64,000 nucleotides of DNA from Actinomycetota bacterium. GTDB lineage: Bacteria; Actinomycetota; Acidimicrobiia; IMCC26256; PALSA-555. How positions within the stretch are numbered: position 1 is the stretch's first letter; each line of letters starts with the position of its first letter. The stretch is from the NCBI GenBank assembly GCA_016870355.1, contig VGBR01000005.1, positions 124,001-188,000 on the forward strand, in the 5' to 3' direction. Positions 852 through 61,138 of this stretch are shown in pieces. A program made the position numbers and the translations under genes. The notes under the pieces are model-generated. The model did no database searches. It was not told the origin of the DNA and worked only from the letters and a program-made list of their open reading frames with translations.

Positions 852-2029
852 ACCTTCGCCTCCTCGTGCAGAGGACGCACCTGCGTCAGATCGACATGCG
901 TCGGCCGCTCGACGCGATGCCATCGATCAAGCTGAAGCTGGGCTTCTTGATCGTCGGCGCGGTCGCGGCCACGGTCTTGGTGTTCTGGCTGGGCGTCACC
1001 GTGGGCTTGTGGCCATCGATCAGTGGCGCGCTCGCCGCGCTCGTCGCGATGACGCTCGTGTACTTCCTCTCGCGTGACATGACTCGCCCGCTTCGCGAGA
1101 TGGCAGCCGCGGCCGACGCCATGGCCCATGGCGATTACTCGCGCCAAGTGATTACGTCGTCGCACGATGAGGTGGGCACGCTGGCCGCCGCGTTCAACGA
1201 GATGGCGGCGGAGCTCGCCGAGACCGACCGCGTTCGACGTGACCTCGTGGCCAACGTGTCGCACGAGTTGCGCACGCCAATCGCCGCGCTTCAGCTCGCG
1301 CTGGAGAACCTCGTCGACGGCGTCGCCACACCGGAGCAAGAGACCTTCCGCACGATGCTCGCCCAGGTCGAGCGGCTCGGTCGGCTCGTGCAGCAGCTGC
1401 TCGACCTGTCGCGACTCGAGGCGGGCGTGGTGCCGCTGGCCCGCGAAGAGTTCCGCGTCGAGCCGCTCATCGAGCACGCCGTGCGCGAGCAGCAACTCAA
1501 CGCACCCAAGGTCGACGTGGAAGTGAGCGTTGAGCCGACCGACCTCACAGCCGATGGCGACCCGGAGCGCGTGCACCAGGTGGTGGCCAACCTGCTCGAG
1601 AACGCGGTCCGCTTCACCCCGAATGGCGGTGTGGTCGAGGTGCGCGCATCGCGAACCGATCACGGCGTCACGATCGAGGTGATCGACGAGGGGCCGGGAA
1701 TCCCCGACGCCGATCGCACTCGTGTGTTCGAGCGCTTCTACAGAGCCGACGCGGCGCGGTCATCGACCAACGGCGGCGCGGGCCTCGGCCTTGCGATCGC
1801 GCGCTGGATCGTCGACCTCCACGGCGGCGACATCCATCCGGAACAACGTGAGCCGCACGGCTGCCGCATGGTGGTCACGCTCCCGCGGCAAGGCGGCGAG
1901 CGAAGCGAGCTCGCGGGAGCGGTGAACGGCCCGAAGGGCGGCGCCGTGTGCCGAGTGGCTCTGCCGCCCGGCACACATGAGACGGAGCCTGCGGAGTCGA
2001 CCATAAGGTCGGTTCCGGGTGCCGAGTGA
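848..2029 (+). CDS. Sensor histidine kinase with a repeat-derived C-terminal tail
   Basis: Membrane histidine kinase of 393 aa, partner of the preceding regulator. It has two transmembrane segments with almost no extracellular loop (about residues 31-75), a HAMP-like linker (about 76-128), a dimerisation/phospho-acceptor helix with H139 in VSHELRTPIAAL, and an HATPase_c domain with N252, DEGPGIP (280-286) and GGAGLGLA. The kinase proper ends near residue 346 (MVVTLPR). The last 47 residues (GGERSELAGAVNGPKGG...) are encoded by a dispersed repeat element, and even the TGA comes from the element's terminal sequence. The short sensor loop suggests sensing within the membrane or through a partner. 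Confidence 0.92.
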   Translation: MNLRLLVQRTHLRQIDMRRPLDAMPSIKLKLGFLIVGAVAATVLVFWLGVTVGLWPSISGALAALVAMTLVYFLSRDMTRPLREMAAAADAMAHGDYSRQVITSSHDEVGTLAAAFNEMAAELAETDRVRRDLVANVSHELRTPIAALQLALENLVDGVATPEQETFRTMLAQVERLGRLVQQLLDLSRLEAGVVPLAREEFRVEPLIEHAVREQQLNAPKVDVEVSVEPTDLTADGDPERVHQVVANLLENAVRFTPNGGVVEVRASRTDHGVTIEVIDEGPGIPDADRTRVFERFYRADAARSSTNGGAGLGLAIARWIVDLHGGDIHPEQREPHGCRMVVTLPRQGGERSELAGAVNGPKGGAVCRVALPPGTHETEPAESTIRSVPGAE

Positions 2030-2040
2030 ACGCGACCAAG
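1895..2040 (+). repeat. Dispersed palindromic element, copy A (translated into the kinase tail)
   Basis: Starts GCGAGCGAAGCGAGCTCG, contains the GGCCCGAAGGGCGGC block, has a longer middle section shared with copy C (encoding ...ETEPAES), and ends GAGTGAACGCGACCAAG. It lies inside the 3' end of the histidine kinase frame and runs to just before the ribB Shine-Dalgarno sequence. Confidence 0.8.
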
Positions 2041-2055
2041 GAAGAGGAACCCCAC

Positions 2056-2688: not shown

Positions 2689-2715
2689 TTTCCACAGCGG
2701 CAACGCAGCTCTGCA

Positions 2716-2792
2716 GGAGCGCAGGTGCTCGCAGGCGCTGGCGAGCGTCCCGAAGGGCGCCGGGTATCCCGGCGCCGAGCGAGCGCGCCAGG
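2716..2792 (+). repeat. Dispersed palindromic element, copy B
   Basis: Short intergenic copy between ribB and a convergent small gene. It contains GAGCGTCCCGAAGGGCGCC, the palindromic GGCGCCGGGTATCCCGGCGCC-like core and the end GAGCGAGCGCGCCAGG. Its location between convergent genes would allow it to act as a hairpin terminator. Confidence 0.75.
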
Positions 2793-3044
2793 TCAGGCGT
2801 CTTCGCCGATCTCTCGGAGTGCGGCTGCGATCGCGGCGCGGAGGCGACGGGCGGTGTCGGGTGCGAGGTGCGCGACGAGCCCGGCGCCCGAGCGGCCGAC
2901 CTCTTCGAGGGTGAGCACGACGCGCAGCGCGTCGTCACCGCACGCCTCGCAGTCATCGGACACCGCGATCGCCCAGGACGCGGGCGGTCGGTCGTCCTCA
3001 TCGGAAGGGTGGTCGTCGGTGGCGTCGTCGATCGAGCGTCGCAT
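2793..3044 (-). CDS. Small acidic hypothetical protein
   Basis: Protein of 83 aa, acidic at the N-terminus (DDATDDHPSDEDD), with a predicted helix at the C-terminus (DTARRLRAAIAAALREIGED). The start ATG (complement of 3042-3044) is preceded by AGGAGG about 11 bases upstream, a strong signal that rules out longer frames. The stop of the upstream yhhN-like gene lies just before it, so the two are probably an operon. No family recognised; the CEAC dyad (DDCEACGDD) is the only notable motif. Confidence 0.6.
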   Translation of the reverse strand: MRRSIDDATDDHPSDEDDRPPASWAIAVSDDCEACGDDALRVVLTLEEVGRSGAGLVAHLAPDTARRLRAAIAAALREIGEDA

Positions 3045-17349: not shown

Positions 17350-17449
17350 ACTGCGGCGACCGGAGCGAAGCGGAGGGAGGTCGCCGGGAGCGGCGAGCGG
17401 CCCGAAGGGCGGCGCCGGGTACCCCGGCGCCCGAGCGAGTGCGACCAAG
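17350..17449 (+). repeat. Dispersed palindromic element, copy D
   Basis: Intergenic copy directly after the enoyl-CoA hydratase stop. GACCGGAGCGAAGCGGAGG, GAGCGGCCCGAAGGGCGGC, then the clean palindromic core GGCGCCGGGTACCCCGGCGC and the end GAGCGAGTGCGACCAAG. It stops 4 bp before the 19-bp operator-like box of the merR gene. Confidence 0.82.
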
Positions 17450-17453
17450 ACTA

Positions 17454-26220: not shown

Positions 26221-26314
26221 AGCGGCGAGTGAGCGAAGCGAGCGAGCTCGCCGGAGCAGCCGAGCGTCCCGAAGGGCGGCGCCCGGTATCCGGGCGCCGA
26301 GCGAGCGCGACCAG
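26221..26314 (+). repeat. Dispersed palindromic element, copy F
   Basis: Intergenic copy just after the ligase remnant: GGCGAGTGAGCGAAGCGAGC, GAGCTCGCCGGAGCAGCC, GAGCGTCCCGAAGGGCGGC, core GGCGCCCGGTATCCGGGCGCC and end GAGCGAGCGCGACCAGG. It stops 3 bp before the stop codon of the convergent 123-aa gene. Confidence 0.82.
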
Positions 26315-26317
26315 GAT

Positions 26318-43292: not shown

Positions 43293-44210
43293 ATGGGAGA
43301 GACGCCACAGATCATCGTCACTGATGCCGACCGGGCGAAGGCTCGGGATCAGGTGCGGGCTGCCTCGCGCGGGACGAGTGTTGGCGGGTTCGTGCTGGTT
43401 GGGTTCACCAACCTGATCGGTGCGGGCGTCACGGAGCTGGCGTTTCCTCAGATCGATGGTGTGGTGCGCGTGCGCGGCTTCTGGGGTGACTTCGCCGAAG
43501 CAGTTGTGCTCGGCATCGTCGCGGTCGCGCTCATCGGCGCCACGATCGTGCGCCCGTTCGAGCACGCGATGCACGCGCGGCGCCGCGCCAGCGCCGACCG
43601 AGAAGCGTCGTTCCGCAGAGAGACCGAGCGACGCAACTTCGAACGTCAACTGGCCACAGGTCTCGATCTCTGCGACAACGAACCCGATCTCCTCTCGACG
43701 ACCGCCTACGCGATGCGCATCGTGACCGGCGACGCACCGACCGAGCTCCTGCTCGCCGGCGACCGCGACCAGGCATTCGAGCGGAGGCTGGTGACCGGTC
43801 GCGAGGCTCCCGGCTGCCAGGTCCAAGACCCTGCGCGCTGTCCGGCAACCCGCCGCGGTGCGGTGCAGGTGTTCGCTGACTCCGAGTCGATCGACGCGTG
43901 TCCATGGCTCCCCGACCGGCCGATCGGTCGCGTCGGCTGCGTCTGCGCACCGGTGTCGGTCACGGGGCGCGCACTCGGGGTGCTGCACGCCGTGCACGCG
44001 GTCGAGGAACAGCCGCCGTCCGCCCAGGTCGAGCAGCTGACCGCGCTCGCCGACCACTTCGGCCAGCACATCGGCATCCTCCGCCTCACTGAAGCCGCCG
44101 GCCATGGCGTGCCGTCAGAGCTGATGGCGCGGGCAGCTGTAGGTGGTGCGGCCACCAACGGTTCGGCGGAGGAGGGCGACACCGTCCTTCGGGCAGAGGC
44201 CGCCGGGTAG
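43293..44210 (+). CDS. Membrane-anchored GAF-like domain protein, probably truncated
   Basis: Protein of 305 aa: two transmembrane helices (about residues 31-53 and 70-90), a short coiled linker, then a GAF-like sensor domain (about 110-260; LDLCDNEPDLLSTTAYAMRI..., GRVGCVCAPVSVTGRALGVLHAVHAVEEQPP). In relatives such a module is often followed by a GGDEF domain; none is present. The last 31 residues lie antisense to the 3' end of the glycosylase gene (95 bp overlap), so the frame seems to run past a lost C-terminal domain. Start ATG 43293. Ligand unknown. Confidence 0.65.
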   Translation: MGETPQIIVTDADRAKARDQVRAASRGTSVGGFVLVGFTNLIGAGVTELAFPQIDGVVRVRGFWGDFAEAVVLGIVAVALIGATIVRPFEHAMHARRRASADREASFRRETERRNFERQLATGLDLCDNEPDLLSTTAYAMRIVTGDAPTELLLAGDRDQAFERRLVTGREAPGCQVQDPARCPATRRGAVQVFADSESIDACPWLPDRPIGRVGCVCAPVSVTGRALGVLHAVHAVEEQPPSAQVEQLTALADHFGQHIGILRLTEAAGHGVPSELMARAAVGGAATNGSAEEGDTVLRAEAAG

Positions 44211-44978
44211 TCGAGCCACCATCAGGTCGCCGGTGTGCGACCCGCCACGACGACCGAGCACTCGCAACGTGGTGGCGATCGCGCGCCGGAGCCGCACCTG
44301 TTCGCCGGCATCGAGCGACTCGGCCGGGCGTGCTGGATCGAGCCCTGCTCGCCACAGCGCCTCATCGACGAGCAGGTTGCCGAGACCGGCGATGCGCGAC
44401 TGGTCCATCAGCACCGCCTTCAATGGTGCGCGACTGCGCGAGACGACCGAGCGCAGGTACGGGAGCGCGAGCTCCAACGCGTCGACGCCCAATCGGTCTT
44501 CGTCTGGGTCGAGCTCGACCGCGCCGAGGCGCCGTGGATCACGCATCGCGAGGCGGCCGCCGTCGGCGAACTCGATGATGAATCGGTGCCACTGCACGTT
44601 CTCGCGGTTGCTCGCGTAGAGCAGCGGGTCTCCCGCGGCCTCGCCGTCGATGAGCACTCGCCCACTCATGCCCAAGTGCAACCCGATGGTCGGGCCGGCA
44701 CTCTGGTCGCACTCGCTGCGGGGCGGGTTACCCGCCCCGCGGACGCTCGCTGCTCCGGCGAGCTCGCTTCGCTCGCCGCTCGTATCGACCAGGAGCAGCT
44801 TCCCGCGTCGGCGGGCCGTGGTGAGGCGACGGCCAGGTAGCGCCTTGCGCACTGCCCGTGGCGTCAGGCCGCGCTTCAGGTACCACGTGTCTGGTGCGCG
44901 CACGGCCGCGATCGGTCGGTTCAGCGCCAGTGCTTCGACGAGCGTTCGCGCCGCCTCGACCTCGAGCAGCTCCGGCAA
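44115..44978 (-). CDS. Fpg/Nei-family DNA glycosylase with an in-frame repeat insertion
   Basis: Base-excision-repair glycosylase/AP lyase of 287 aa. N-terminal MPELLEVE (catalytic P2, E3), then GKLLLVDTS followed by about 27 extra residues GERSELAGAASVRGAG...DQSA (68-94), then GPTIGLHLGMSGRV, the normal continuation. Helix-two-turn-helix DQSRIAGLGNLLVDEALWRAGLDP is present. The zinc-finger region reads CPKDG...SCPRHQ, with Asp and His in place of two Cys, as in some actinobacterial members. The insertion is dispersed repeat copy G. Starts 5 bp after the ilvD stop. Whether the inserted loop is tolerated is not known. Confidence 0.85.
   Translation of the reverse strand: MPELLEVEAARTLVEALALNRPIAAVRAPDTWYLKRGLTPRAVRKALPGRRLTTARRRGKLLLVDTSGERSELAGAASVRGAGNPPRSECDQSAGPTIGLHLGMSGRVLIDGEAAGDPLLYASNRENVQWHRFIIEFADGGRLAMRDPRRLGAVELDPDEDRLGVDALELALPYLRSVVSRSRAPLKAVLMDQSRIAGLGNLLVDEALWRAGLDPARPAESLDAGEQVRLRRAIATTLRVLGRRGGSHTGDLMVARLPGGLCPKDGVALLRRTVGGRTTYSCPRHQL
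44703..44781 (-). repeat. Dispersed palindromic element, copy G (inside the Fpg/Nei gene)
   Basis: On the minus strand: GGCGAGCGAAGCGAGCTCGC, CGGAGCAGCGAGCGTCCGCG, core GGGGCGGGTAACCCGCCCC-like palindrome, and the end GCAGCGAGTGCGACCAGA. The CCCGAAGGG block is shortened in this copy. Net length is a multiple of three, so the host frame is preserved. Confidence 0.82.
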
Positions 44979-46666: not shown

Positions 46667-46687
46667 GTCCAACTTCCCGCTCTCGGC

Positions 46688-46754
46688 GCTGCGCGCCGGG
46701 CCGCTCGGGCCCCGGCTCGTGCGCCGCAGGGTACCTGCGGCGCGTTCACTCGCC
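46688..46754. repeat. Possible variant copy of the dispersed element (copy H)
   Basis: Between divergent ilvD and the BNR-like gene: CGCCGGGCCGCTCGGGCCCCGG followed by CGCCGCAGGGTACCTGCGGCG, a palindrome like the core of copies C and I, and TTCACTCGCC. The GAAGGGCGGC block is not present, so assignment is tentative. Confidence 0.4.
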
Positions 46755-46775
46755 TTCGATCGTACCGGCCGGCGT

Positions 46776-46781
46776 TACCCT
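46776..46781 (+). promoter_or_regulatory. -10-like box TACCCT for the BNR-like gene
   Basis: TACCCT ends 6 bases before ATG 46788 with no Shine-Dalgarno sequence, the leaderless pattern of this window. Confidence 0.45.
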
Positions 46782-46787
46782 GACCGC

Positions 46788-47693
46788 ATGGCCTTCGCGC
46801 TCGTCGGCACGTCCAACGGCATCACTGCGCTCGATGCGGACGGCCACGCGCACTTCGAGCTCGACAGTGGCGACGTGTCTCGGCTCGCGCGCAGCACCCG
46901 TGGATGTTGGGCCATCGTCGGTGGCGGGCGCTTGCTGCGCCGGGGTGACGACGAGGTCTGGCACGAAGTTGCAGAGGTCGACGGCGAGCTCACCGCGGTG
47001 CTGCCGTTCGCCGACGGTGCGCTCGCGGGTGTCCGCGATGGCCAACTTCTGCGGATCTCGACGGACGCTGCCGAAGCGGTATCTGGGTTCGATGAAGTCC
47101 AGGGCCGCGAGAACTGGCACGCCGTCCCGAGCGGAGACCCGTACGTTCGGTCGCTGGCGGCCACGGCCGACGCAGGTGCGGTGCTCGCCAACGTCCACGT
47201 CGGTGGGATCCCGCGCTCGACCGATGGCGGTGCGACGTGGTTGCCGACGATCGACCCCGAAGTCGATGTGCACGAGGTGCGCGGCCATCCCTCCGACGAG
47301 GCGCTCGTCGTCGCGGCCGCGGGCGCCGGCTTCTTCTGGAGCACCGACGGCGGCGTCACGTGGACCGAGCACAACGACGGCCTTCACACGACCTACGCAC
47401 GCGCGGTGGCATTCACGAGCGAGGGTGTGCTCGTGAGCGTGTCGGACGGACCGTTCGCTCGCGAAGGCGCGGTGTATCGGTGGGTGCTCGGGACCGACGA
47501 ACCCCTGGAGCGCTGTGTTGACGGCCTCCCCGACGAGCTCGCAGGCAACATCGACACCGGCGCGCTCGACGCGTCCGGCGAAGACGCGGTGCTCGTCGAT
47601 CAAGGCGGCGCGGTCTACGTCAGCGGCAACACCGGCCTCTCCTGGTCACACCTCGCCGACGTAGAGGACGCACACACCGTCGTCCTCGCCTAA
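46788..47693 (+). CDS. BNR/sialidase-like repeat (beta-propeller) protein
   Basis: Cytoplasmic-looking protein of 301 aa with BNR-type turns: STDGGATW, STDGGVTW and a degenerate SGNTGLSW, spaced about 45-120 residues apart. These mark beta-propeller blades as in WD40/YVTN/BNR proteins; catalytic sialidase residues were not recognised. No signal peptide. Function unknown. Convergent with gatB; a strong hairpin lies between. Confidence 0.75.
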   Translation: MAFALVGTSNGITALDADGHAHFELDSGDVSRLARSTRGCWAIVGGGRLLRRGDDEVWHEVAEVDGELTAVLPFADGALAGVRDGQLLRISTDAAEAVSGFDEVQGRENWHAVPSGDPYVRSLAATADAGAVLANVHVGGIPRSTDGGATWLPTIDPEVDVHEVRGHPSDEALVVAAAGAGFFWSTDGGVTWTEHNDGLHTTYARAVAFTSEGVLVSVSDGPFAREGAVYRWVLGTDEPLERCVDGLPDELAGNIDTGALDASGEDAVLVDQGGAVYVSGNTGLSWSHLADVEDAHTVVLA

Positions 47694-53279: not shown

Positions 53280-53360
53280 GCGGTGCCGAAGCGGAGCGGA
53301 GGCACTCGCCAGGGAGCGACCGTCCGCGGCGCAGGTACCCTGCGTCGCAGGGAGCGAGCT
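53280..53360 (+). repeat. Dispersed palindromic element, copy I (variant)
   Basis: In the gap between the protein kinase and SDR genes: GGTGCCGAAGCGGAGCGGAGG, ACTCGCCAGGGAGCGACCGTCC and core GCGCAGGTACCCTGCG followed by GGGAGCGAGC. It resembles copy C in its GCAGGTACCCTGC core; the GAAGGGCGGC block is altered. It overlaps the last base pairs of the kinase stop region. Confidence 0.6.
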
Positions 53361-55242
53361 AAAGGTAGAGGGTGACTTTGGAGCCCTTGGGGACGACGTT
53401 GCCGCCAGTAGGTGCCTGCGCCCGAACCGGGGCACCGGGCGCGTAGTTCTCGACGTCGGGCACCAAACCGAGATCGCGCACCACGGCGCTCGCGGCCTCG
53501 ACCGTCATGCCCACGACGTTCGGAACCGTGATGAGCTCAGGCCCCTTGCTCACGACGACCGTGACCTGCGAGTCACGCGGCGCCAGCTCGCCGACCGCCG
53601 GCTTCGTCCCGATCACGACGCCCGCGGGCACGGAGTCGCTGAAGGCGTCTTCACGCACCGCGGTGAATCGCACCGACGCCAGGATCGCAACCGCCTCCTC
53701 ATAGGTCTTGCCGGCAACGTCGGGAACCGCGACCGGCTTGGGACCATTGCTGACGACGAGCTCGACCCGCTTGTCGGGACGCCACTTCGTGCCGACGGGC
53801 GGGTTCGTGCTGAGCGCGATGTCCTTCGCGATCTCCTCGTGATGCACGGGCGTGACTGCGACGACAAAGCCCGACTGCTCGAGCAGCACGGTCGCATCGG
53901 CGACGGGCAGGCCTGCAACATCGGGGATCGGGATTGGAGGTGGGCCACGCGACACCACGACCGTGATCTCGTCGCCTTCGTCCAAGAACGCGCCGGGTCC
54001 GGGCTGCTGCTCGATCACCAGGCCGCGCGGGTCGTCCGACGTGCGGCGCTCGACGACCTTCATGAGCAAGCCCTTTTCGGTGGCCAATGACGCGGCTTCC
54101 TCGCGATCCACTCCAACGAGCGCTGGCGCGTCGACGCTGGCGCCGGCACCGGTAGAGAGGAACAACGCCGCGGGCGCGATGAGCATCGCCGCAATCGCGA
54201 TCCCGACCACGACTGGGATCGCGCTCTTGCGCATGACGACATGGAGTGGCTCGCCACCATGGATCTCGAGCGGCGCTTCGGCCTCGTTCACCGTGTCGTC
54301 ATTCGACGGATCCGACGACGGCTTGCCGGTTCGCATCCGTGCGATGCGCGTCGGATTCATGTCGTCGAGGTCGCCGCCCAGGCCGGCGATCGGCAGTGCC
54401 GCCGGCGTCGGAAGCTGGCGGGCGGCGCGGGCGAGCGCTGTGCCCATGTCGGCCGCATTGGCGTAGCGCTCGCTCGGGTCGGGGCGGCCAGCGCGCGCGA
54501 CCACTTGCGCGAGCGGTCCCATCTCGAACGGTGGCTGGATGCCGCGCGACGCTCGGCTCGCGATCGTGCCGAACGCGGTGTCGGCCACACCGGGCACGGT
54601 GCCCGTGCACGCTTCGACGAGCACCAGGCCGAGCGCGTACAAGTCGGCACGGCCGTCGAGTCGCCCTTCTTCGGCCTGCTCGGGTGCCGCGTAGCGAGCC
54701 GTGCCGAGCACCGTGCCGCTCGGCTCGGTCCACGATGCTTCGGCCAGCGCGCGAGCGAGGCCAAAGTCGGCGACCCGCACGATCCCGTGCTCGTCGAACA
54801 AGAGGTTCGCTGGCTTCACGTCGCGGTGCACCAGACCGCGGGCGTGGGCGTACCGGAGTGCGGCCGCGACCTGCCGCCCGACATGGGCGGCTTGTTCCGG
54901 GGTGAGCCGGGCGCCAGTGTCGAGGAGCCCCCGCAACGAGCCGCCCTTCAGCAGCTCCAGCACCATGAAGGGGACGCCGTCGTCCTCGCCCCAGTCGTAG
55001 ACCGCCATCACGTGGGGGTGATGGAGCGCGGCGGCGATCTGGGCCTCGGCCCGGAACCGGCGCAGGAAACCGGCGTCGTCCGCGAGCCCGCTGTGCAGGA
55101 CCTTCACGGCCACCCGCCGCCGCAGGCGGATGTCGTCGGCGACGTAGACGCGACCGCTCCCCCCGGCGCCGATGGGCGCCAGGAGGCGGTAGCGCCCTGC
55201 CAGGACGCGACCAACGAGGTCAACGAGGGCAGTGTTGGCCAT
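53359..55242 (-). CDS. PknB-type Ser/Thr protein kinase with four PASTA domains
   Basis: Membrane kinase of 627 aa. Kinase domain about 14-285: glycine loop IGAGGSGRVY, K47 in VAVKVL, HRDVKPAN (D141, N146) and DFGLAR (159-164); a juxtamembrane linker, one transmembrane helix (about 345-365) and four PASTA repeats to the C-terminus (VPALVGV..., IPDVAGLP..., VPDVAGKT..., VPNVVGMT...). PASTA domains sense muropeptides or lipid II in PknB/PrkC, linking wall state to growth. All catalytic residues present. Start ATG 55242 (MANTALVDL); the longer frame to 55269 adds only basic residues. Confidence 0.93.
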   Translation of the reverse strand: MANTALVDLVGRVLAGRYRLLAPIGAGGSGRVYVADDIRLRRRVAVKVLHSGLADDAGFLRRFRAEAQIAAALHHPHVMAVYDWGEDDGVPFMVLELLKGGSLRGLLDTGARLTPEQAAHVGRQVAAALRYAHARGLVHRDVKPANLLFDEHGIVRVADFGLARALAEASWTEPSGTVLGTARYAAPEQAEEGRLDGRADLYALGLVLVEACTGTVPGVADTAFGTIASRASRGIQPPFEMGPLAQVVARAGRPDPSERYANAADMGTALARAARQLPTPAALPIAGLGGDLDDMNPTRIARMRTGKPSSDPSNDDTVNEAEAPLEIHGGEPLHVVMRKSAIPVVVGIAIAAMLIAPAALFLSTGAGASVDAPALVGVDREEAASLATEKGLLMKVVERRTSDDPRGLVIEQQPGPGAFLDEGDEITVVVSRGPPPIPIPDVAGLPVADATVLLEQSGFVVAVTPVHHEEIAKDIALSTNPPVGTKWRPDKRVELVVSNGPKPVAVPDVAGKTYEEAVAILASVRFTAVREDAFSDSVPAGVVIGTKPAVGELAPRDSQVTVVVSKGPELITVPNVVGMTVEAASAVVRDLGLVPDVENYAPGAPVRAQAPTGGNVVPKGSKVTLYL

Positions 55243-58853: not shown

Positions 58854-59882
58854 CTAGGCGGCGATGCCGCCGCCTACGAGCTCGTCGCGGTCGTAGAGGG
58901 CGACGACTTGGCCGGACGCGACACGTGGATGCGGCTCGTGCATCACGATCCGATCGGGTGCGACGACGCGGCCGGGAGCCGGCTGCCCGTGCGCCCGCAC
59001 CTGCACGGTGAGGTCGCGGCCGCGTGCTGGCGCGCCGACCCACACGAGATCGCGCACCGGGATCTCGGTGCGCAGCAGATCCTCTCGGCGTCCGATCGTC
59101 ACCGTCGCGCTCACCGCGTCGACATCGACGACGTAGCGCCGCTCGCCGGCTGCGACACCGAGGCCCCGCCGCTGCCCGACCGTGAAGTGGGCGATCCCGT
59201 TGTGGTGTGCGACGAGGCGCCCGCCCATGTCGACGACGTCACCCGGTCGACCGGGTGCACGATCGTCGAGGAACCGGCGCCGCTCGTCGCGAGCGACGAA
59301 GCAGACGTCCATGCTCTCGGGCTTGCTGGCGGTCCGAAGGCCGAGCCGGGTCGCGTGCGCTCGCACCTCGGCCTTCGTGAGCTCACCGATCGGGAGCATC
59401 ACGCGGGCGAGCTCGTGCTGGCCGAGCATGTAGAGGACGTATGACTGGTCCTTGGCAGCGTCGACGCCGCGGAGCAGCCGGAGGTCACCATCGCGCGCGC
59501 GGCGCACGCGGGCGTGGTGACCGGTCGCCACTGCGTCGAAGCCGAGCGCGGCGGCGCGTCCGAGCAGCACGCCGAACTTGATCGACCGGTTGCACTCGAC
59601 GCAGGGGTTGGGTGTCTGGCCCTGTGCATGCGCCTCGACGTACGGCCCGACCACGCTGTCGTCGAACTGCTCGGCCAGGTTGAACACATAGTGGGGGACG
59701 TCGAGCTGCGCAGCCACCCGCCGGGCATCTTCGACGTCACCGACCGAGCAGCACCCGGAGTCGATCTGACCACCCCACAGTCGCAGCGTCACCCCGGTCA
59801 CGTCATGACCCTGGTCGCGCAGCAGCGCGGCTGCGACGGACGAGTCGACGCCACCGCTCATCGCCACGAGGACGTTCATCAT
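58854..59882 (-). CDS. mnmA: tRNA 2-thiouridylase (MnmA)
   Basis: Thiolates U34 of Lys, Glu and Gln tRNAs. Protein of 342 aa: PP-loop MSGGVDSSVAAALL (8-21), catalytic C97 in NPCVECNRSIKFG, ATGHHAR, DQSYVLYML and persulfide C194 in ESMDVCFVA; C-terminal barrel with HFTVGQRRGL. The start ATGATG at 59882/59879 overlaps the cysteine desulfurase stop, so sulfur is delivered by a co-translated partner. Confidence 0.95.
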   Translation of the reverse strand: MMNVLVAMSGGVDSSVAAALLRDQGHDVTGVTLRLWGGQIDSGCCSVGDVEDARRVAAQLDVPHYVFNLAEQFDDSVVGPYVEAHAQGQTPNPCVECNRSIKFGVLLGRAAALGFDAVATGHHARVRRARDGDLRLLRGVDAAKDQSYVLYMLGQHELARVMLPIGELTKAEVRAHATRLGLRTASKPESMDVCFVARDERRRFLDDRAPGRPGDVVDMGGRLVAHHNGIAHFTVGQRRGLGVAAGERRYVVDVDAVSATVTIGRREDLLRTEIPVRDLVWVGAPARGRDLTVQVRAHGQPAPGRVVAPDRIVMHEPHPRVASGQVVALYDRDELVGGGIAA

Positions 59883-61138
59883 TCCGGTCGCGCTCGCTCG
59901 TCGCCGGGGTTCCCGGCGCCGCCCTTCGGGACGCTCGCCGCTCCTGCGAGCTCCCTCGCTCTGCTCGGGCGCCGCCCCTCGTGACGAAGCTGCGCGACCA
60001 CGTCGGGGATGACGGCGAGCGCGTGATCGACGTCGGCATCGGTCGACGCGAAGCCGAGGCTCAGACGGATCGATGCCAACGCCTGGTCGCGCGGTACGCC
60101 CATCGCCGCGAGGACGTGTGAGGGCTCCGTTGCCCCCGACGAACACGACGATCCCGCTGCCGCGAGCACCCCGCGTCGATCGAGCGCGACGAGCAACGTC
60201 TCGGCTTCGACCCCGCCGAATGCGACATGGAGGTTGCCTTCGACCTTGCGCGCCGCATCGCCGTTGAACGAGCAGTCGGGGATGGCTGCGGTGATCCCGC
60301 CGGCGAGACGGTCGCGGAGCCCGGCAACTCGCGTCAGCTCCTCATCGCGGGTCGCCACCGTGACGCGCAACGCCGCGGCCGTCGCGACCGCACCCGCAAC
60401 GTTGACCGTCCCAGCACGCAGCCCTCGCTCCTGTCCACCACCCTCGATGAGCGACTCGAGCGGCACCTTGTTGCGCACGAGCAGCGCACCGGCGCCCTTG
60501 GGCCCACCGAACTTGTGGGCCGAGATCGTGACGAGGTCGACGGCCGCGGCCGCGGTCGCGACGTCGAGCCACGGCACCCCCTGCACGGCATCGGTGTGCA
60601 CGACGGCGTTCGGAGCATGGGCCCGAACCAGCCGCACGACCTCGTCCAGCGGCTGGATCGTGCCGACCTCGTTGTTGACGAGCATCACCGAGACCACGAC
60701 GGTGCGCTCGTCGAGCGTCTCGACGAGCGCGTCCAGATCGACGACACCGCCCGCGGACACCGGAACCCGCTGCACACGAAGCCCTTCGCGCTCGAGCCGG
60801 TCACACGGGGCCAGCACGCCCTTGTGCTCGAAGGCAGTGGTCACGACCCCGTCGCCACGGTCGGCCGCGCGCGCCGCCCGTGCCGCGCCGAGCACCGCCA
60901 GGTTGTCGGACTCGGTGCCGCCGGCCGTGAACACGAGCTCGTCGGGCTGGCCACCGAGCGCGGCGGCGACCTCCTCGCGGGCGATCTCGAGCGCGGTCTT
61001 GGCGGCTCGGGCCGCGGCGTGGCCGCCCGACGGGTTCCCGTAGCTGCCGGCGAGGAAGGGGGTCATCGCCTCGAGCGCCTCGGGCCGCATCGGCGTGCTG
61101 GCGGCCTGGTCGAGGTTGGCGGTCGGGGCGGAACGCAC
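59879..61138 (-). CDS. Cysteine desulfurase (IscS/NifS type) with a repeat-derived C-terminal tail
   Basis: PLP enzyme of 419 aa supplying persulfide sulfur. NLDQAASTPMRPEALEAM at the N-terminus, K209 in SAHKFGGPKGAG binds PLP, GGGQERGLRAGTVNV follows, and active C332 is in GSSCSSGATEPSHVL. The family sequence ends about residue 387 (DVVAQLRHE). Residues 388-419 (...RARELAGAASVPKGGAGNPGDERARPE) are translated from dispersed repeat copy J, in the same frame as the kinase and Fpg/Nei copies. TAGACT lies 6 bases before the GTG start 61138. Coupled to mnmA. Confidence 0.93.
   Translation of the reverse strand: MRSAPTANLDQAASTPMRPEALEAMTPFLAGSYGNPSGGHAAARAAKTALEIAREEVAAALGGQPDELVFTAGGTESDNLAVLGAARAARAADRGDGVVTTAFEHKGVLAPCDRLEREGLRVQRVPVSAGGVVDLDALVETLDERTVVVSVMLVNNEVGTIQPLDEVVRLVRAHAPNAVVHTDAVQGVPWLDVATAAAAVDLVTISAHKFGGPKGAGALLVRNKVPLESLIEGGGQERGLRAGTVNVAGAVATAAALRVTVATRDEELTRVAGLRDRLAGGITAAIPDCSFNGDAARKVEGNLHVAFGGVEAETLLVALDRRGVLAAAGSSCSSGATEPSHVLAAMGVPRDQALASIRLSLGFASTDADVDHALAVIPDVVAQLRHEGRRPSRARELAGAASVPKGGAGNPGDERARPE
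59884..59975 (-). repeat. Dispersed palindromic element, copy J (3' end of cysteine desulfurase gene)
   Basis: On the minus strand: GGCGCCCGAGCAGAGCGAGGG, GAGCTCGCAGGAGCGGC, GAGCGTCCCGAAGGGCGGC, core GGCGCCGGGAACCCCGGCGA and the end GAGCGAGCGCGACCGGAATG, where the final ATGs start mnmA. The stop codon of the host gene is in the sequence just after the element. Confidence 0.82.

Follow-up and report, generated by a model that had tools for sequence, protein, structure and literature searches.

The window (the whole 64,000-nt stretch of DNA analysed here) contains at 44115..44978 on the minus strand an Fpg/Nei-family DNA glycosylase gene, recognised by its open reading frame and Pfam domains (Fapy_DNA_glyco and H2TH). 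It has a TTG start and codes for 287 aa. The active-site residues P2, E3 and K60 and the C-terminal GRTTYSCPRHQ of the zinc-finger region are conserved in the product. The gene carries an in-frame copy of a dispersed palindromic element (core 44703..44778, minus strand), whose forward strand coincides with the coding strand. This copy encodes residues ~68-93 of the glycosylase (GERSELAGAASVRGAGNPPRSECDQS), and SELAGAASVR and SECDQSAGPTIGLHLGMSGR are peptides predicted from the translated insert. The central hairpin of the copy (44718..44740, minus strand) was found as an inverted repeat, GCGGGGCGGGT A ACCCGCCCCGC, with 11-nt arms that pair perfectly; folding of the copy gave z = -4.9 (101 nt).

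The covariance-model match to the glycosylase copy spans 44700-44785 and scores 83 bits (E 1.1e-13 for the genome). A BLAST match to another locus has 84% identity over 76 nt (E 2.6e-17). BLAST located copies of the element in more than 20 solid further places in the genome, so the segment does not stand alone, and the sequence-only reading, which described a dispersed element lying in frame inside an Fpg/Nei gene, was right on this point.

The glycosylase insert and its history

Glycosylase homologues are present in 36 of 41 genomes, and those of relatives are mostly 256-268 aa long. In nearly all homologues (36 genomes) GKLLLVDT runs directly into GP(V/T)xGLHLGMSGR. The orthologues from two genomes of the same genus, G001 and G003, have 263 aa each and lack the insert. 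In the alignment with homologues the glycosylase of the window shows a net gain of 24 residues; the insertion was thus placed correctly by the sequence-only reading, while its size of 27 residues was an overestimate. Short additions unrelated to the element occur in the same loop in G006, G008 and G036. The sole exception among the homologues checked is the G002 glycosylase, where a related insert occupies the identical site. The same residues are therefore not shared by many genera, and the insert is not confined to this species either.

Both exceptions belong to sister pairs of the same genus: the genome of the window, G000, is paired with G001, and G002 with G003. The glycosylase gene tree, calculated with the insert removed, has the topology ((G000,G001),(G002,G003)) with strong support, and the insert is found in G000 and G002 only, their sisters being free of it. 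Judging from this tree, a single clean insertion would not fit the pattern, and two insertions or two losses would be needed. The insert may be ancestral and have disappeared from both sisters, the element may have entered the site independently in G000 and G002, or a copy may have passed between the lineages. The two inserts agree in their boundaries, in having the TAA loop, which is the rarer one, and in a 5' module of 92% similarity; their hairpins differ in type. The 5' module of the G002 insert is closest to the copy in the window, while its full length is closer to another copy.

The AlphaFold2 model of the glycosylase has a mean pLDDT of 85, with residues 75-92 below 50, and places the insert between strands 61-66 and 97-101. 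The model thus suggests that the insert forms a disordered loop within a confident Fpg/Nei fold. In Fpg this site is what we take to be the beta-turn after the strand bearing the catalytic lysine, a permissive place. Since the active-site residues are conserved, the beta-turn is permissive and relatives carry unrelated additions in the same loop, the function of the glycosylase is probably retained despite the insert.

Anatomy and distribution of the element family

The element is GC-rich, roughly 75-100 bp long and built around a strong central hairpin. Its 5' module is exemplified by GGCGAGCGAAGCGAG..GAGCTCGCC(G)GGAGC, followed by GCGAGCGNCC. The hairpin comprises about 10 bp around a TAY loop, as in GCGGGCCGGG-TAT-CCCGGCCCGC, and the 3' module begins with AGCGAGCGAGC or reads AGCGAGTGCGACCA. 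Several variants were distinguished. Type 2 is distinguished by an additional mini-hairpin, CCCGAAGGG, and type B by a second block at the 3' side, GGGGCCCGAGCGGCCCGGCCCGCAGGGCCGAGAGCGGGA; the long form contains ~70 nt more in the loop, with GAGACGGAGCCTGCGGAGTCGACC, and the same block was found in other G000 and G001 copies. In some copies (window 1886-2042, L166:367-514, L186:5154 and 5222, and several G001 copies) the loop holds a second repeated block, GGAGACGGAGCCTGCGGAGTCGACC, preceded by a GTGGCT-TGCCGC hairpin; these copies are either long variants or carry another element nested in them.

That copies of the element also occupy intergenic sites of the window was confirmed by scanning with R1, a covariance model derived from 20 element copies. 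The long variant is located at 1886..2042 (plus strand, 29 bits), its hairpin loop holding the extra block. Further copies are found at 2706..2795 (plus, 48 bits), 53281..53366 (plus, 70 bits) and 59881..59974 (minus, 55 bits). Two copies belong to type 2: one at 17354..17451 (plus, 48 bits), with an ATG start 34 nt past the hairpin centre, and one at 26223..26317 (plus, 69 bits), which has the mini-hairpin. A weak type-B copy (46704..46789, minus, 27 bits, E 0.008) lies upstream of ilvD, coding for dihydroxy-acid dehydratase, and its 3' module GGCCCGAGCGGCCCGGC stands shortly ahead of an ATG. Within 46672-46789 the listed ilvD start (TTG) adjoins this element, and the real start may be the ATG right after AGAGCGGGAAG.

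Scanning of the 2.8-Mb genome with R1 gave at least 138 matches at E<=1 and at least about 123 at E<=0.01; these counts are approximate, as 150 candidates were scored and the E-values of the model are rough. The element is therefore a real family with at least ~120 copies in the 2.8 Mb of G000. The reversed pattern, used as a control, gave zero matches in 58 of 58 genomes. A search for over-represented k-mers yielded just two hairpin centres, the commonest ones, in G001; in G000 it detected no hairpin centre.

The exact pattern was searched over 84,980 species, and the matches came only from Acidimicrobiia/Actinomycetota MAGs of this order, plus contigs titled Bifidobacterium breve. Three contigs with this title (CAMDCC01; L112, L117, L130) carry the element at positions equal to those in the same-genus genome G002, so the title looks wrong. 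The element was present in 12 of 58 genomes of the order and in 18 of 198 genomes of the class, all of them within its own order; among 246 genomes of the phylum it was found in G000 only. Most of the host family lacks it. As far as the genomes compared indicate, these being drafts and mostly metagenome assemblies, the family does not extend beyond a single order of Acidimicrobiia, where its occurrence is patchy. Rfam gave no match at the gathering threshold in the window, and the surroundings of the element had no match even at E<=5. No description of the family was found in the part of the literature on palindromic elements of Actinobacteria and Acidimicrobiia that was covered, and the family is apparently undescribed so far.

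Pairing of the hairpin arms was evaluated at sites selected solely on the loop and the 5' side. The result is bimodal, with a background of 0-5 pairs out of 10 and the elements at 8-10. Of 10 possible pairs, 9-10 are formed at 52 sites, which comprise 32 distinct arm sequences. Orthologous G000 and G001 copies can differ in their arms and still be paired (GCGGGCC/GGCCCGC vs GCGTGCC/GGCACGC), and one orthologous site shows a compensatory change from G-C to T-A. The palindrome of the hairpin is kept while the sequence of the arms is free, which fits both an RNA and a DNA reading.

Tandem copies with flanking gene-end sequence, in units of about 60-120 nt, were observed at L151:13299-13468 (G000 contig C3), G048 C20:54548-54704, G014 C8 and G029 C21. 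A 3' module in contig C53 of G001 (L198, near 154913) is interrupted by a stretch of N and then poly-C, suggesting that the hairpins of the element break assemblies.

Placement between and inside genes

Gene boundaries and starts were set by a home-made codon model trained on long ORFs, without curated annotation. About 60% of the copies lie between co-directed genes, where 62 G000 and 64 G001 copies are in sense orientation and 9 and 8, respectively, are antisense. One G000 copy was counted twice in overlapping stretches, so the sense to antisense ratio is 125:17 with the duplicate removed. Another 21 copies in each of the two genomes are located between divergent genes, and 9 in G000 and 13 in G001 between convergent ones. 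The copies on two G000 contigs show a strong strand bias along the whole contig (18 plus and 1 minus on C2, 22 plus and 6 minus on C3), which probably reflects gene orientation. Distances from the hairpin centre to the downstream start peak at 20-49 nt and, for type B, at 60-69 nt. Type-B copies have the ending GAGAGCGGGA-(N)-ATG, similar to a Shine-Dalgarno site. Such motifs are only modestly enriched at element sites (33 of 87, vs 9-26 of 87 at control offsets).

The flanks of 68 G000 copies (one of them counted twice) could be matched in the 1.48 Mb of G001 covered by the comparison; 35 of these sites have no detectable G001 copy and 33 have one, so element sites come and go. The stop-to-start spacings of the empty G001 junctions are -4, -1, -1, -1, +1, +3, +6, +13 and +24, and one more junction has no assigned spacing. 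Most of these junctions overlap or nearly overlap, and the element occupies formerly coupled or nearly coupled junctions. At filled junctions the upstream stop is located about 90 nt before the downstream start. At 35 of 57 element junctions (61%) the start codon coincides with the end of an ORF of 60 nt or more, which terminates at -4 or -1 in most cases. Such an ORF is found at 65 of 276 junctions that lack the element and have comparable spacing (24%) and in 154 of 216 truly overlapping gene pairs. A target-site duplication is unreadable in the sister genomes, as the flanks are ~12-25% diverged, and L180:4342 hints at a duplicated TGA. MIRU insertion is said to duplicate a DTGA target, a report associated with Supply et al. 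1997.

Among the classified matches, five in G000 and five in G001 are intragenic and in frame, i.e., 10 of 217 (one genomic copy counted twice), or ~5%. All three sense frames are used, and one copy is antisense. The RecG copy accounts for 21 extra residues relative to PDB 1gm5 and the RimO copy for about 24 relative to PDB 4jc0. The NuoL gene has one antisense copy in G000 and two sense copies in G001, and an AidB-like acyl-CoA dehydrogenase carries the element in G000 and in G001, at an identical position. Further in-frame copies were found in a small protein in L178 and in a DnaE-type polymerase III alpha subunit. PDB alignments of this polymerase, of NuoL and of the dehydrogenase show length differences in the region which delimit the insert less cleanly than in RecG. 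The inserts in RecG, RimO and Fpg are confirmed by alignment against homologues.

Origin of the insert and its relation to known elements

Two kinds of known elements resemble the family. MIRUs (mycobacterial interspersed repetitive units) insert at start codons, and their internal ORF is coupled to the downstream gene at -4 nt (PMC12548453). Like them, the element is a short dispersed actinobacterial repeat, apparently mobile and sense-oriented between operon genes, with overlapping stop/start junctions before insertion and ORFs which end on the downstream start. In contrast to MIRUs, with which it was compared by description, it has a strong hairpin that covaries, 5' and 3' modules in several variants and clear in-frame copies in conserved genes, and its own pattern and model gave no matches outside one Acidimicrobiia order. 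The sequence-only reading did not know of this family in Actinobacteria; no description of it was found in the literature covered, and MIRUs provide a close functional precedent in these bacteria (PMC12548453).

The other precedent, already named in the sequence-only reading, is that of Rickettsia palindromic elements (RPEs), of ~150 bp, which encode a conserved peptide and lie in frame within genes, nearly half of them being located in ORFs (PMC10969869). The likeness consists in dispersed palindromic copies in frame in unrelated conserved genes, where they are presumably translated. It does not extend further: the element described here is ~75-100 bp long, in-gene copies are a minority, and, since all three sense frames are used, there is no conserved peptide in a preferred frame. 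The element also shares with MITEs its small size, non-coding nature, dispersal and occasional in-frame fusions. Unlike in MITEs, only the internal palindrome is conserved, and in the alignment the ends of the element are not inverted repeats.

We consider it probable that the glycosylase copy is a member of a new small, apparently non-autonomous dispersed family, characterised by insertion at operon junctions, stop-poor sense frames and in-frame tolerance. The element would insert, or survive insertion, chiefly at tightly packed operon junctions with overlapping or nearly overlapping stop and start codons. It would be co-oriented with transcription and abut the next start codon with its 3' end; a reading frame running through it and ending on that start would keep translational coupling. 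Since the sense direction is nearly free of stop codons, the element could be harmless at junctions, and the same stop-poor frames would allow intragenic copies to be read through. The glycosylase copy would have fallen in a beta-turn loop, adding about 24 disordered residues, and may be tolerated for this reason. We infer both the mobility of the element and the role of tolerance as the cause of its distribution. As a tentative and rather doubtful extension, the element may be a transposable translational-coupling cassette which replaces overlapping stop/start junctions genome-wide and in which pairing, not sequence, is selected even when translated; the same loci in sister species would then carry hairpins that are differently spelled and perfectly paired.

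The alternatives differ in what they take the palindrome to be for. A functional RNA, i.e., an intercistronic hairpin with a ribosome-binding or coupling module, selected for control of translation or mRNA processing and with the intragenic copies as strays, would account for the sense-strand bias and the anchoring at start codons, for free arms with kept pairing, for orthologous copies with different matched arms and for the Shine-Dalgarno-like ends of type B. We regard it as unlikely, since G001 lacks a copy at roughly half of the sites that could be compared, most of the host family lacks the element and the enrichment of Shine-Dalgarno-like motifs is only modest. Moreover, template-switch mutation or the need of a mobilising enzyme could also keep the palindrome perfect.

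Such an enzyme is central to the very improbable idea of REP-like palindromes moved by a Y1 transposase of the IS200/IS605 type (REP/RAYT). High copy number, GC-rich palindromes and a location mostly between genes are shared with REPs, but the element exceeds them in length and is anchored to start codons. The GT(A/G)G head expected at the hairpin foot, GTAG or GTGG, is absent in the alignment, where GAGCGNCC precedes the hairpin. PF01797 was not found in any of the element-bearing genomes searched (G000-G003, G005, G012, G014, G016, G022, G027-G029), so this route is not supported; three element-free genomes of another genus do have a match. The search for a parent transposon, which covered PF01797, found none in the element-bearing genomes. 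Almost no credence can be given to the insert being an ordinary lineage-specific loop, similar to other sites by chance in GC-rich DNA. The short additions in the same loop of G006, G008 and G036 would agree with it, but it is refuted by the BLAST and covariance-model scores of the copy together with the empty reversed-pattern control.

The element joins two precedents that are usually separate, MIRU-like insertion at coupling junctions and RPE-like in-frame insertion, and suggests one explanation for both: stop-free sense frames would let it survive wherever ribosomes pass. If this is true, operon spacing, annotated starts and the odd loops of many proteins in these genomes would all be side effects of a single element, and starts and ends near its copies will have been misplaced by gene callers. 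It also adds an apparently undescribed element family to a class of largely uncultured actinobacteria.
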